Below are positions 6,608 to 48,810 of a stretch of 64,000 bases of DNA, one piece after another. The first letter of the stretch is position 1. Each line of letters begins with the position of its first letter. A model generated the notes under the pieces. That model was given only the letters and a program-made list of their open reading frames with translations, ran no database searches and was not told where the DNA came from. The DNA comes from Methanolobus zinderi (GTDB lineage: Archaea > Halobacteriota > Methanosarcinia > Methanosarcinales > Methanosarcinaceae). The stretch spans positions 1,116,001 to 1,180,000 of the forward strand of contig NZ_CP058215.1 of assembly GCF_013388255.1 (NCBI RefSeq), written 5' to 3'. Made by a program: the position numbers and the translations under genes.

Positions 6608-8788
6608 TCAGATGAACAGGGTGAATATGGAGTAGCCGATTATTATCATAATAGTTGAGTGCTTGAGGCCTGCCATCACACTGCCCTCCCCCATTGCGCC
6701 TGCCATCAGGCCGGAACTGAGTCCCTGGATGATGGCTGCATGTTTGAAAAGCTGGGTGTATGCATCAAGATCGAAGTTTCCGAGGAAACCGCCTGCACTG
6801 GATCCGGAATCCGCCATCTGTTTCCCTGCTTCTGCCATCTCACTTAAGAAAGTAGTTGAGATGACATAGATGACACCTACAAAGACTAGGAATGAGATAT
6901 AGATGATAACAATATAGATCATCATGCTCATTGTACGTTCTCTTTTCATTCCCTGCTCGGAAGCCGCATCCCTTGCGGCGACCATAAGAACTTCACCGAT
7001 ATCACCACTGGACTCATTAGCTTTCGTGATAAGGGACAGAGAGCGTGTAACTACCTGAGTTCTCAGCCTGTTTGCAAATCTTATGAGGGCATCATTGATC
7101 TCAAGTCCCCAGAAAACATCGTGCCAGATCTTCCTGATCTCCGAGCTGAGAGAGTCGGTATCGGACCTTGACATAAGTCTTATGGAATCTCTGAGAGTCA
7201 TACCGGTTTCATTGGTACTTGCCAGTTTCTTCAGGAAATCAGGGAAACTGCTTTCAAGCTTCTTCTTCCTTCTCTGCTTGATCTCATAGAAGGCTGAAAG
7301 TGGTATTATGACAAGCAGGATTGCAAATACTATCTTGTCGTCTATGAACTCCACCATCATCGCAAGGTTGCCTACTCTGTTGGCATTCAGGAACAGGGAA
7401 CTCATTACTATGAGAAGTGCAAGAGGGATTGTGATTGCGAGTGTGAATAGGGGATTTCTGAACATGGGTGTAAGCGGATTCTTCATTATCTGCTTCATGG
7501 ACAGTGATTTCTTTGATTTCTCAAACAGTTCGAAGTTTGTCCTTTCCCTTACTTTCTCTTCGCTTTCATCCACCGGTTCCCCGTGCTCGTCATAGACGGG
7601 TTTCAGGTGAGCCGGCATATCAGGTATCCCATGGTCAAGTACTGTATTTGTGCTAAGGATCTTAGGCTCTCCCATTTCAGTGGGTGTTATGATGCTGATC
7701 ATAACTACAAACATCAGTGATCCCACTGGCAGAACTGCATATATGATCGCATACACCATGGTCGCAGAACCTGAACCCATTACTGCCATCATGACACCCA
7801 TGATGATAATGAACAATGGACCTGCTACAAAAGCAGTCACATATGATTCGGCAAGTAAAGCCAGTGTTTCAAGGAAACCTTTCTGGTCTACCTCTGCCTT
7901 TACAAGGTATTGTTCCGATTTGTCGCGGAAATAATTGGGGATATTACCTCCACTGTCGATAACTGTCAGGAGGTTGTAGATGAGATCCTGGAACCTCTCG
8001 GAAGGTGTGATCTCAGATGCATTTGTGAGTGCGGTCCTCAGGTCATGTCCGAAGTACTCCATGTCCCTTACAATGGAATCTATCTCCTTTGAGACCTCTC
8101 CATACGTATCTTCAGAACGTGCGAGTGCCTTGAAAACATCTATAATGTTCATGCCACCCTTACTGAGGGCGTACATGAATGTTACGGCATAAGGCAACTG
8201 CATATCGATCTTCGTTTTCCTCTCTCCCGCCTGGAATCCGGGATAGAGCATGAAGATCGTATAGACCAGGCCGCCGAGTCCTACAATGAAAACAATAGTT
8301 ATGAAGAATGCGACAAATATTTCTTTATAGTCCAGCAGGAATGCCATACCGGGGCTGAATGTAAGTTTGGTGAGATTCTCAGGAAGGCCGATGATCGCAA
8401 TTATGAAATAGGTAATGACCAATCCGAGCAACGCACCCAAAACTCCCGCAAGTACCGAGTAGAATACTGCGTTTGAAATATACATCTCATGGGAAATCGG
8501 TATACGTGCCTGGTTCAGTTGTTTCTGCAGATTGACGTAATTCTGTTTCTTTGCCTTTATCTGGGTTCCGAGAAGAACGAAAGGTATCCTTTTGAGAATA
8601 TTGAAATACAGGGTGGCTTTTTTGACGTAAGGGTCAAGATCAATCTTTGGCTTTTTTTTCTTCTTTGTAACTTTGTCTGCAGGAAGCTCTGATGCTTCTG
8701 CATTTTCGAAATTGAGTTCAGGTTCTTGAGTCCCGGATTCTTCCATTTCGGATGTTTCGATCTCAGAGGAATCATTTTTTTCTGTCAC
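6608..8788 (-). CDS. Fused double TadC/ArlJ-type pilus platform protein
   Basis: 726 residues holding two type II secretion F domains in one chain. Each half has membrane helices flanking a cytoplasmic helical domain: about residues 60-350 (ending MSIITPTEMG) and about 430-726. The N-terminal 60 residues are acidic and then Lys-rich. Platform proteins of this family sit in the membrane and are moved by the secretion ATPase to extrude pilin-like fibres. The ATPase gene lies 16 nt upstream on the same strand. The second pilus locus in this window (41.8-44.1 kb) has the same two domains as separate proteins, so this is a fusion. No pilin gene is adjacent. Confidence 0.88.
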   Translation of the reverse strand: MTEKNDSSEIETSEMEESGTQEPELNFENAEASELPADKVTKKKKKPKIDLDPYVKKATLYFNILKRIPFVLLGTQIKAKKQNYVNLQKQLNQARIPISHEMYISNAVFYSVLAGVLGALLGLVITYFIIAIIGLPENLTKLTFSPGMAFLLDYKEIFVAFFITIVFIVGLGGLVYTIFMLYPGFQAGERKTKIDMQLPYAVTFMYALSKGGMNIIDVFKALARSEDTYGEVSKEIDSIVRDMEYFGHDLRTALTNASEITPSERFQDLIYNLLTVIDSGGNIPNYFRDKSEQYLVKAEVDQKGFLETLALLAESYVTAFVAGPLFIIIMGVMMAVMGSGSATMVYAIIYAVLPVGSLMFVVMISIITPTEMGEPKILSTNTVLDHGIPDMPAHLKPVYDEHGEPVDESEEKVRERTNFELFEKSKKSLSMKQIMKNPLTPMFRNPLFTLAITIPLALLIVMSSLFLNANRVGNLAMMVEFIDDKIVFAILLVIIPLSAFYEIKQRRKKKLESSFPDFLKKLASTNETGMTLRDSIRLMSRSDTDSLSSEIRKIWHDVFWGLEINDALIRFANRLRTQVVTRSLSLITKANESSGDIGEVLMVAARDAASEQGMKRERTMSMMIYIVIIYISFLVFVGVIYVISTTFLSEMAEAGKQMADSGSSAGGFLGNFDLDAYTQLFKHAAIIQGLSSGLMAGAMGEGSVMAGLKHSTIMIIIGYSIFTLFI

Positions 8789-8804: not shown

Positions 8805-11042
8805 TCAATCCAGCTGAAGTTTCTTCAGTACCTTCTCAGGTGTTGACTGGTACGCATTGATTATTCCTGATATCACATTGAAATCATTTATTTCGTTGCT
8901 TACCATGTACTCAAGTATCTTCTGCCTGTAATACAATTCCTGATCTATCCTTGACTGTCCCCATCCACGGCGCATCTTGATATCAAATATTGCCTTGGAC
9001 TCACCGGTTCTTACAAATACGTCAGACTCGGAATCCCAGACAAAGATATCATTGGTTCTGATGTTCCTGGTATTGGGATCGATGTCAATGATCTCTACAA
9101 GCTTGAGGTTCCTTCTTACACGCTTACCTTTGGTGTAGGTCTGTGCCTGTATACTCATGATGTCCAGTGCCTGGATCATCGTACGCGGGACACTGATCGG
9201 TGGGTTCTCAAGCCTGTGGATAGCAGATGCAACTGAGTCGGCGTGCATTGTCGAGAAAGTGGTGTGACCTGTTGACATCGCCTGGAAGAGCGTAAGTGCT
9301 TCCTTACCTCGGACCTCACCCACAAGCAGGTACTCAGGACGTTGACGCAGTGCAGCCTTTAGCAGGTCATACATATCCACGGCTCCTCTTTCATCCGCTG
9401 TGAAGGAGTCCCTGGTAATACTCGGAATCCAGTTAGGGTGCGGGAGTTTAAGTTCACGTGTATCTTCAAGAGTAATGATTTTGGCCTTTTCAGGAATGAA
9501 AAGAGATACTGCGTTAAGAGATGATGTCTTACCCGAAGCCGTACCTCCGGCGTATATCAGACTCTTGTTGTTCTCTATACAGAGCCAGAGATAGGCCATG
9601 GCCTCTGCCGAGAATGTGCCCCATTTGATCAGATCAACAGGTGTGATCGGCGTATCGCTGAACTTACGGATGGTAAAGGTACTTCCATGTGCAGTGACAC
9701 ATGTACCCAGTGTCATCTGTATCCTTGAGCCGTCAGGCATGGTGGCATCTATCATAGGTTCGGCGACTGAAATGTGTTTGCCACTTCTCTGTGCCATCTG
9801 GATTATGAAGGAGTTCAGTTCATCTTCTCCATATACTATATTAGTGGCAATGTTCTGGTGTACGCGGTGGTAAAGGAATATTGGAACATCATGGCCGTTA
9901 CCGGAAACATCCTCAATGGAATCATCGTACATCAGAGCATCTATCTTTCCGAAGCGCACGAAATCCCGTTTTATGTAGTAGGATATCTTGGCAAGTATAG
10001 CAGGTGTAAGTTCAAGGGTATAATCCTGGATAATCGACCAGATCTTATTATCGAGTACCTTCTCTTTGTCCTCTTCATCCTCTGATATCTCTTCTACCAG
10101 AAGTACATCACGAAGTCTGTCCATGATCTCGTTCAGGAGAACTTCTTCAAAATCACTAAGTTCGGGTTCCACCACATAGTACAGATGATTATTCACATCT
10201 TCATTATAAAGAATAACAATAAGTGTATAGGGTTCGTTTACCCAGTAACGGTCGATTTCCTCATATCCTTCGACCCCTTTGAATTCGGTAATAGGACCGT
10301 GTAATTCGGGGTCGTAGGGTTCCATCTCGAACTCGACCTGCTTGAACAGTTTTTTGATCTTTCCAAAAAAGCCCTTTTCTTCTTCGTCTTTTTGCTTTTC
10401 TTCACTGATCTCGTTCAGGGAAACTTCGCTATCTTCAAGAGTTTCTTCCTCTTCATCGTTGGTGACTATGTTCTCTTCCTTGGCTTTTTCTTCGAGGATA
10501 CTCTTTACCCTGGCCTTTGCTTCCTCATCCTTTTGAGATGAAAGCGTGTCTGCTTTCTTTTTAACTGGAGCTTCTGTTTTTTTGGGTCCGAAGCCTGAAG
10601 ATCTAGGAAGCAATATGTTCAGCTCATCGTCGTCATCAGATAAATCAGAATCAAGTTCATCCGTTGTGGAAGCAGAACTTGCCTTTTCTTCTTCAACAGC
10701 AGGTTTATCTTCTGTTTCGTTATCTGAAAAAAGCAGGTCTTCTTCATCCCTGTCATCTTCAAGCTCTTTTTTCAGAGGACTCTTCTTGATGATCGAGGTG
10801 AATTCTTCTTCAAGTTTCTGATCTGACTCCTTTATCTCCGCTAACTTTTCAAGAAGATTCGATGTTTCCAGAGAATCATCAGTTTCATCCTCATCTGTCT
10901 CTAGATCATCACTCGAATCGGATGACCCTTCATCAGCCTCGGACAGATCATCATAGGTCGATGCTAGTTCATCAGCCTCATCTGTTTCTTTGGCATCTTC
11001 AAGCTCTTTTTTTCCAGGATCTTCTATCTGAGCATCAGCCAT
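8805..11042 (-). CDS. Type II/IV secretion ATPase with acidic N-terminal tail
   Basis: About 745 residues, member of the ArlI/GspE/TadA motor ATPases. The C-terminal half carries Walker A GGTASGKTSS, an Asp box (ITLEDTRELKLPHPNW), Walker B with LVGEVRGKEALTLF and the His box HTTFSTMHADS. The first 230 residues are low complexity and dominated by Asp, Glu and Ser, with very few aromatic residues, and are probably disordered. The start ATG at 11042 is preferred to the ATG four codons upstream because a GGTGA sequence sits 5-6 nt before it. It drives the fused platform protein encoded 16 nt downstream. It is a clear paralogue of the ATPase at 39.7 kb (shared VYxExELNxF and PxxDATxxDGSR). Confidence 0.9.
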   Translation of the reverse strand: MADAQIEDPGKKELEDAKETDEADELASTYDDLSEADEGSSDSSDDLETDEDETDDSLETSNLLEKLAEIKESDQKLEEEFTSIIKKSPLKKELEDDRDEEDLLFSDNETEDKPAVEEEKASSASTTDELDSDLSDDDDELNILLPRSSGFGPKKTEAPVKKKADTLSSQKDEEAKARVKSILEEKAKEENIVTNDEEEETLEDSEVSLNEISEEKQKDEEEKGFFGKIKKLFKQVEFEMEPYDPELHGPITEFKGVEGYEEIDRYWVNEPYTLIVILYNEDVNNHLYYVVEPELSDFEEVLLNEIMDRLRDVLLVEEISEDEEDKEKVLDNKIWSIIQDYTLELTPAILAKISYYIKRDFVRFGKIDALMYDDSIEDVSGNGHDVPIFLYHRVHQNIATNIVYGEDELNSFIIQMAQRSGKHISVAEPMIDATMPDGSRIQMTLGTCVTAHGSTFTIRKFSDTPITPVDLIKWGTFSAEAMAYLWLCIENNKSLIYAGGTASGKTSSLNAVSLFIPEKAKIITLEDTRELKLPHPNWIPSITRDSFTADERGAVDMYDLLKAALRQRPEYLLVGEVRGKEALTLFQAMSTGHTTFSTMHADSVASAIHRLENPPISVPRTMIQALDIMSIQAQTYTKGKRVRRNLKLVEIIDIDPNTRNIRTNDIFVWDSESDVFVRTGESKAIFDIKMRRGWGQSRIDQELYYRQKILEYMVSNEINDFNVISGIINAYQSTPEKVLKKLQLD

Positions 11043-27255: not shown

Positions 27256-27642
27256 CTAATCCAGCCCCATATAGAAAATAATTTGCCACACTGCGAGTGA
27301 AATAGTCGATGCCGCCAGACCAATCCGTGTCTTTAGTGATGCAAAGTAACCTATTGTCGCTCCTATGAATGATAAGATGATCCAGTAAACACTTGATCGA
27401 ATAAATCTGCTTGTATCGGATGTAGGCGTATCTCCTGAGATTAAAAGTATATACAAATAGATAGTCATGTGGGATAACACTGCAGTTGCGGGTGCTTCAA
27501 TCTTGTCATCTGAAAAATATCCATATATGAGTATAAATAATGGCAAAAAAATGAATGCTGTTTGAAAAAAGGTAGTGCCTATTACTATTATCAGGGACAA
27601 AAACAGAGGAACCTTATATCTATCAAAAAAACTGCTCTTCAT
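27256..27642 (-). CDS. Small membrane protein, paralogue of the gene at 48.2 kb
   Basis: 128 residues with four hydrophobic segments and hardly any extramembrane part. It shares with the 131-residue product at 48218-48613 the pattern FxFLPxxxxxYGxFS followed later by YWIxLxxI, TxGY and the C-terminal GLD. It is convergent with the TctA-like gene (3 nt) and lies just downstream of the cupin gene. I do not recognise a function. Confidence 0.65.
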   Translation of the reverse strand: MKSSFFDRYKVPLFLSLIIVIGTTFFQTAFIFLPLFILIYGYFSDDKIEAPATAVLSHMTIYLYILLISGDTPTSDTSRFIRSSVYWIILSFIGATIGYFASLKTRIGLAASTISLAVWQIIFYMGLD

Positions 27643-47646: not shown

Positions 47647-47838
47647 AATCTGAAGACTGTATGCTCAAATATATCTAAAACATGTATATTTTTATTAAAA
47701 TAATGTACTTGTTATATTATTTATGTTCATATAATCGAAATCCAGCTACATGTTCAAGTGAGAAAACAATCCTGAAAATGTATCTCTAAATGTATGGGAA
47801 CTCTATAGTTACTGTTTGTCTTTAAACCAATATAATTT
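47647..47838. other. Intergenic flank left of the transposon-like element
   Basis: A/T-rich DNA upstream of the DUF5658-like gene, probably its promoter (TATTTTTATTAAAATAAT region). No gene is supported; an antisense frame crossing into the element has no family features. Confidence 0.4.
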
Positions 47839-47863
47839 TCTATATAGGGCTTGCCCATAAAGT
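47839..47863 (+). repeat. Left inverted terminal repeat with flanking TCTATATA
   Basis: The left end GGGCTTGCCCATAAAGT with the outer TCTATATA copy. The inner half TTGCCCATAAAGT also resembles the 20-bp repeat units that follow 4 nt later. Confidence 0.65.
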
Positions 47864-47867
47864 CTTC

Positions 47868-47927
47868 TTGACCACAAACTACGCAATTTGACCACAAAGT
47901 GCTACAGTTGACTATAAACTCGAGAAA
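47868..47927 (+). repeat. Three tandem 20-bp repeats, left end
   Basis: Units start at 47868, 47888 and 47908, each beginning TTGAC(C/T)A(C/T)AAA(C/G)T and exactly 20 bp long. Positions 13-20 of each unit vary. Confidence 0.8.
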
Positions 47928-48217
47928 TCGGCAACGTCCAATGGCTTTGATTTTTTGAAAATGGCCGAATTTTAAGCATTGTTTAACAAGGAACACGGCA
48001 TCTATATTTATATATAATTCTAACGATAAATTATAGTTTTCCATTATACTACGGAACTTTGATGATTTTGAAAGGAGTTTTGAAATTATGATTTTTTGGT
48101 TGCGATTGCTTGTATGTTTTTTAGTATTTTCTATAAACCTTGGATAATAGTTGAAATCATAATCTAAATATACTAATAAGTATAATTTAATACGCTAAAG
48201 ATGGAGAAAGGAACATC

Positions 48218-48613
48218 ATGAAATCCATTACCGAAATTGATTTTAAAAACACATATAGGTCATTGATTTTATCATTGTTGTTATTTTTAATCATTTTAAA
48301 ATTTGATTTCATTATCTTTTTATTGCCTATAATTGCATTGGGCTATGGTAGGTTTTCGAAAAACCAAATCGCCGCTTGTATAATCGGCAGTTTCCCGTGC
48401 ATTTTTAGTCTTTTATACATAGTTTTTGTCCTAAGCGGATATCCTTTTCTTGCTGACAAGCAATTACTTGGAACAATAATATATTGGATCAGTTTGACAG
48501 CTATTATGGGAACAGTTGGTTACGCATCATCATACAATACATCGACGAGTTTAATAATAGCATTCGGGCTTTTAATTTTAGCAGAATATGTTTTGTATAG
48601 CGGTCTTGATTAA
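48218..48613 (+). CDS. Small membrane protein carried inside the transposon-like element
   Basis: 131 residues, four hydrophobic segments, few charged residues after the first 15. It is paralogous to the 128-residue protein at 27256-27642 (shared LPxxxxGYGxFS, YWISL, TxGY, C-terminal GLD). A GGAGAAAGG sequence lies 6-10 nt before the ATG. It is the only clear gene between the terminal repeats. No function is recognised; very AT-rich compared with the genes on either side. Confidence 0.7.
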   Translation: MKSITEIDFKNTYRSLILSLLLFLIILKFDFIIFLLPIIALGYGRFSKNQIAACIIGSFPCIFSLLYIVFVLSGYPFLADKQLLGTIIYWISLTAIMGTVGYASSYNTSTSLIIAFGLLILAEYVLYSGLD

Positions 48614-48726
48614 TAGTTTCTTCATTCATAGTTGCAGCAACATCAATGAGGTCGTAACTTCAATTTTTGCAACCAAAATTATTTTTAATTCACTCGATAG
48701 TCGGAAAGGGGTTTCCGATATCCAAT

Positions 48727-48786
48727 TTAACCATAAACTAAGCTACTTGACTATAAAGTAGGCTATTTGACCACAAACTAAGGCAC
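48727..48786 (+). repeat. Three tandem 20-bp repeats, right end
   Basis: Units start at 48727, 48747 and 48767, in the same orientation as the left set and exactly 20 bp each (TTAACCATAAACTAAGCTAC, then two TTGAC units). They run straight into the right inverted repeat, which overlaps the third unit by 2 nt. Confidence 0.8.
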
Positions 48787-48810
48787 TTTATAGGCAAGCC
48801 CCTCTATATA
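48785..48810 (+). repeat. Right inverted terminal repeat with flanking TCTATATA
   Basis: ACTTTATAGGCAAGCCC, one extra C, then TCTATATA. Its reverse complement differs from the left repeat at one base. Confidence 0.65.

Follow-up and report, generated by a model that had tools for sequence, protein, structure and literature searches.

A 955-bp stretch in the genome of Methanolobus zinderi can be identified with high confidence as a mobile insertion cassette, one that carries cargo, is not autonomous and derives from a family of transposons in which the transposase joins a SWIM zinc finger at the N-terminus, a helical region and an IS5-like DDE domain. The element lies at positions 47847-48801 of the window, the 64,000-nucleotide stretch analysed here (contig NZ_CP058215.1, positions 1,116,001 to 1,180,000, forward strand). 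Transposons and mobile insertion cassettes are already known as kinds, and the element looks like a new member of an undescribed transposon family.

Architecture of the element

The terminal inverted repeats (TIRs) are located at 47847-47863 (GGGCTTGCCCATAAAGT, plus strand) and 48785-48801 (minus strand) and agree at 16/17 bases, exactly as an earlier sequence-only reading of this DNA had noticed. That reading was right that an element with TIRs exists, and slightly wrong on its length, given as 956 bp. It also proposed an 8-bp target-site duplication; the duplication is 9 bp, with 8/9 positions matching and one mismatch (TTCTATATA at 47838-47846 versus CTCTATATA at 48802-48810), and this length was set by the relatives, in which 9 bp is the rule.

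Next to each TIR there are three repeat units with 12-bp cores at 20-bp spacing. At the left end the cores are located at 47868-47879 (unit 1, TTGACCACAAAC), 47888-47899 (unit 2, TTGACCACAAAG) and 47908-47919 (unit 3, TTGACTATAAAC), and at the right end at 48727-48738 (unit 3, TTAACCATAAAC, inverted relative to the right TIR), 48747-48758 (unit 2, TTGACTATAAAG) and 48767-48778 (unit 1, TTGACCACAAAC). All six units share one orientation (plus strand), so that the core positions bear out the three same-oriented 20-bp repeats read earlier at each end, and all have the form TTG-N6-AAAR with small departures. Motif units averaged 1.77 per end, compared with 0.12 in internal control stretches. Because homologous ends recur in many genomes and the units exceed the internal controls, the end architecture of the window element is not due to chance.

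The sole gene-like ORF of the element encodes 131 aa (48218-48613, plus strand). It has no match in Pfam, looks like a small membrane protein, and has a distant paralogue at 27259-27627 on the minus strand of the window (29% identity), in agreement with the membrane protein cargo and paralogue described from the sequence. Neither a transposase ORF, as that description also had it, nor a replication gene is found inside the element, which is present as a single copy in its genome.

The SWIM-DDE transposase

A full element with a transposase, which the sequence-only reading had suggested looking for, was found in the relative G087. It is 12.4 kb long with homologous ends, and a 540-aa protein adjoins its right end. 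This protein contains a DDE_Tnp_1 domain (PF01609, 6.4e-15) and a weak SWIM match, and its best NCBIfam model is IS5_2 (115 bits, 4.3e-33), for which the cut-off of 140 is not reached. In an 11-kb sister element in G089, whose HsdR is 94% identical, only a 34-residue remnant of the transposase is left; on this comparison the G089 element is an autonomous element turned non-autonomous.

The SWIM cysteines and histidine and the DDE residues are invariant across 11 aligned transposases, and the Pfam SWIM model matches 44/46 transposases. The AlphaFold model is confident (pLDDT 87): a SWIM region at the N-terminus is followed by helices and by a core that resembles RNase H. Its top solved match in Foldseek is the Tn5 transposase, a weak, whole-chain match, and a search of solved structures by sequence with the transposase returned chance kinase matches only. 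Around the transposase of G030 there was no complete pair of TIRs and duplications, and end-like sequence was found to the right only.

A SWIM transposase is absent from the window genome, where the match to the transposase spans the DDE part only and is of the plain IS5 type. For this reason the window copy is probably immobile at present, either as a remnant or as an arrival from a different species.

The wider family and its end code

A scan of one genome per species, covering 84,980 species, found 282 relatives of the transposase. The 80 loci examined are the best-scoring of these and not a random sample; their hosts are Chloroflexi, Acidobacteria, Planctomycetes, Verrucomicrobia, Proteobacteria, DPANN archaea and methanogens. 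At 45/80 loci the transposase is bracketed by a TIR pair, nearly always GGCTTTG-like, together with a 9-bp duplication. Since chimeric loci used as a control pass a similar filter in 4/36 cases, compared with 27/36 for real loci, the 45 may include a few false positives. Locus L230, left out of this count, passed the automatic filter and was discarded as a false positive, having a TIR without GGCTTTG and no arrays.

The repeat unit across the family is TTG-N6-AAAR, and N6 varies with the transposase. When offsets were counted in 54 elements, units in the TIR orientation were found at 22 (37 ends) and 42 (31 ends), and inverted units at 32 (35 ends) and 52 (20 ends), sometimes accompanied by a same-orientation unit at 53 (13 ends). 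The plan is asymmetric: one end has forward units (+22/+42), whereas the units of the opposite end are inverted (+32/+52). The same offsets were observed in a viral collection, where 13/27 loci were resolved, none of them used to derive the rule. In the subfamily of the Methanosarcinaceae, to which the window element belongs, the offsets are 21/41/61 and 23/43/63. Transposases about 40% identical belong to elements with different repeat sequences and the same plan, and the element plan is the same for more distant transposases in other archaeal families. In a midpoint-rooted tree the methanogen type forms a separate deep branch. Plasmid and phage collections yielded distant relatives only (about 28% identity), which are annotated transposases.

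These data bear on the possibility that a resident ordinary insertion sequence of the IS5 family, not a dedicated SWIM-DDE transposase, mobilises the ends, given that plain IS5-type copies, whose DDE domain is homologous, are present both in the window genome and in its relatives. We compared ten IS5-type loci in which the transposase match covers the DDE part only, one of them from the window genome. Nearly all are elements of about 1 kb with mostly 8-bp duplications, no arrays and no cargo, and their TIRs are of the GGCTCTGTAG or a similar kind, mostly of the GGCTCTGTAGAAA type, whereas the ends that bear arrays lie on either side of SWIM transposases, and the units match within one element. 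Mobilisation by an ordinary IS5-family element is therefore improbable, and we attribute the ends to the SWIM-DDE family.

The exception is locus L276 (G031:C1:114500-126000), where a plain IS5-type insertion sequence lies among array-type ends, GGCTTTGACGATAAAC and GGCTTTGACTATAAAG. Because further array-type ends surround it, the pair that bounds it is not its own.

Relatives in Methanosarcinaceae and evidence of mobility

When 60 relatives were searched at the DNA level, several genomes proved to have homologous ends in pairs around different sequence, so that the other copies which the sequence-only reading had proposed to seek in Methanosarcinaceae do exist. Sequence models of the two ends were run against 111 genomes of this archaeal family; one matched 33 genomes and the other 36, roughly a third in each case, some of these matches being single or weak. 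The family elements examined in Methanosarcinaceae range from about 0.9 to 12.4 kb and carry unlike cargo between mostly perfect 9-bp duplications (among the perfect ones GAATAAAAC, CCAGAAGGA, GTAAAAAAG, CTCCTGATA, TAAAAATTA, TGAAATCGA and TCAGGATTA).

A 5,371-bp element is present in two species, G028 and G076, with 99.98% identity (one base differs), at different sites and with its own perfect duplication at each. Empty sites, another check proposed earlier, were found for both: the sister species G074 has the G076 site empty (joined flanks, 93% across the full 600 nt), and the sister species G073 has the G028 site empty (joined flanks, 75%, positions 4-528). For the window junction the nearest empty site is in G004, which aligns continuously across it at about 69%; this evidence is weaker but consistent, and the alignment appears to fit an empty site. 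Judged from these comparisons between genomes, family members are mobile, showing precise insertion, a 9-bp duplication and a common end architecture around unlike cargo.

The same observations bear on whether this is an ordinary regulated locus, in which the arrays would serve the cargo gene or the next one as operators or promoters. One array does lie upstream of the cargo gene, and some elements lie just upstream of genes such as amtB. Nevertheless, the arrays occur at both ends, within elements bounded by TIRs and duplications, with unrelated genes and in either orientation, and family members have empty sites. Moreover, relatives possess the flanking promoter region without the element, which contradicts the case named earlier as refuting, that the repeats are conserved as an ordinary promoter. 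An ordinary regulated locus is thus very unlikely compared with a transposon derivative.

Probable recognition of the ends by the transposase

Repeat divergence correlates with transposase divergence, most strongly for the helical region ahead of the DDE domain (Mantel r 0.42), a correlation that could partly reflect shared ancestry. When the DDE signal was removed, the helical region still correlated with the repeats (partial r 0.38, p 0.001). The SWIM finger was considered as the reader of the repeats and is a weakened candidate, as its partial correlation, with DDE allowed for, was not significant (partial r 0.08, p 0.096).

The end repeats are thus probably transposase-binding sites, which agrees with one half of the earlier suggestion that the arrays bind a transposase or a replication protein; the other half is not sustained, as there is no replication gene and the repeats track the transposase. 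It is very unlikely that the repeats, iteron-like as 20-bp direct repeats, serve a replication or partition protein of an integrated small replicon, since besides these two points they lie next to TIRs and 9-bp duplications.

Under the transposon model, the unit in the TIR, together with the TTG-N6-AAAR units phased at two helical turns, would bind several transposase protomers, and the helical domain ahead of the catalytic domain would read the N6 core. The asymmetry between forward units on the left and inverted units on the right may let the enzyme distinguish the ends, and these unequal ends may be used as in Tn7 and Mu. Because the transposase would act on the ends, anything between them could move, and varied cargo and the mobilisation in trans of transposase-less derivatives would follow.

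Cargo

Cargo is enriched in DNA methyltransferases. Individual PADLOC models of the methyltransferase type match up to 13-14/122 cargo proteins of the surveyed elements, compared with 1/122 flanking proteins, and Pfam families among the 122 cargo proteins include N6_Mtase (13), D12 (3) and N6_N4 (2). No AAA regulator (TnsC/MuB), accessory ATPase or target selector is among the 25 Pfam families listed for these proteins. The G087 element carries Type I restriction-modification (RM) genes and AriA/AriB-like (PARIS) genes, and in the methanogen cassettes examined, NosD-like proteins, serpin-like proteins and small membrane proteins are the more frequent cargo. A NosD-like cargo gene is shared at 83% identity by elements with different end types (L115:6204-7637 and L014:7019-8452), suggesting exchange of cargo between end types.

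Comparison with known systems

Tn7 and Mu have several transposase sites per end and unequal left and right ends. In the SWIM-DDE elements the sequence motifs, which may be such sites, stand at unequal offsets, 22/42 forward versus 32/52 inverted; the elements differ from Tn7 and Mu in transposase family and in a duplication of 9 bp, not 5 bp. A TIR beginning GGCTTTG and a 9-bp duplication are features of IS903, which the SWIM-DDE elements resemble. They further share with the IS903 group of the IS5 family the DDE_Tnp_1 catalytic domain, with IS5_2 as the best NCBIfam model. Unlike compact IS5 elements, the SWIM-DDE family adds a SWIM domain, phased end arrays and cargo, at 2.1-12.4 kb.

Mobile insertion cassettes and transporter IS have IS-type ends without a transposase and are presumed to be mobilised in trans by a related element, and transporter IS carry passenger genes (PMC3129680). 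The window element is similar in having TIRs, a duplication and cargo without a transposase, and a transposase-bearing element with the same end type exists (G087, 12.4 kb). MIC231, a mobile insertion cassette associated with IS231 and cited in PMC2266710, belongs to the IS4/IS231 group, whereas the window element has a SWIM-DDE partner and a phased repeat array at each end. Mobile DNA also moves RM genes, as in the IS-linked movement of RM systems (PMC3031569); the SWIM-DDE family holds RM genes inside single transposons with conserved ends.

A literature search, with subscription journals mostly outside it and no comparison with ISfinder, found no report of SWIM-DDE transposons with such arrays and no matching paper on SWIM transposases in archaea. 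We favour, with some reserve, the wider interpretation that an undescribed SWIM-DDE superfamily spans both domains and includes the window element; its conserved, asymmetric and helically phased array of predicted sites with a variable 6-bp core would be a self-recognition code, and the superfamily would be a vehicle for RM, PARIS and archaeal surface-protein genes. An unannotated intergenic oddity would thereby come to mark transposons that are widespread in bacteria and archaea, DPANN archaea among them, and that carry genes for defence against viruses. The family offers a clean system for studying the reading of phased arrays by a transposase, and the means by which the enzyme distinguishes its own ends from those of related elements, and the end code makes non-autonomous cassettes findable where annotation shows hypothetical genes only.

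Composite and adjoining elements

Several loci in the relatives show unusual arrangements of ends. Just upstream of amtB in two species there are a complete element (L084, G074) and a right end (L015:3945-4008, G028), for which no left partner was detected. A mini-element of about 115-140 bp in G087 (L082:14468-14600) consists of the two kinds of end array, right and left, set back to back without cargo, and abuts the right duplication of the 12.4-kb element. At L173:1054-1149 two left ends, GGCTTTGTTGCATAAC and GGCTTTGTAAAATAAG, differ, yet one and the same 9-mer (CCGGATCGA) precedes each of them, as would be expected had another element inserted next to the first. Finally, the G075 element L115:5886-11790 has further ends in its interior, in sets located near 7741 and 10220-10330, which suggests that three modules (NosD, transposase and serpin) joined into one larger element.
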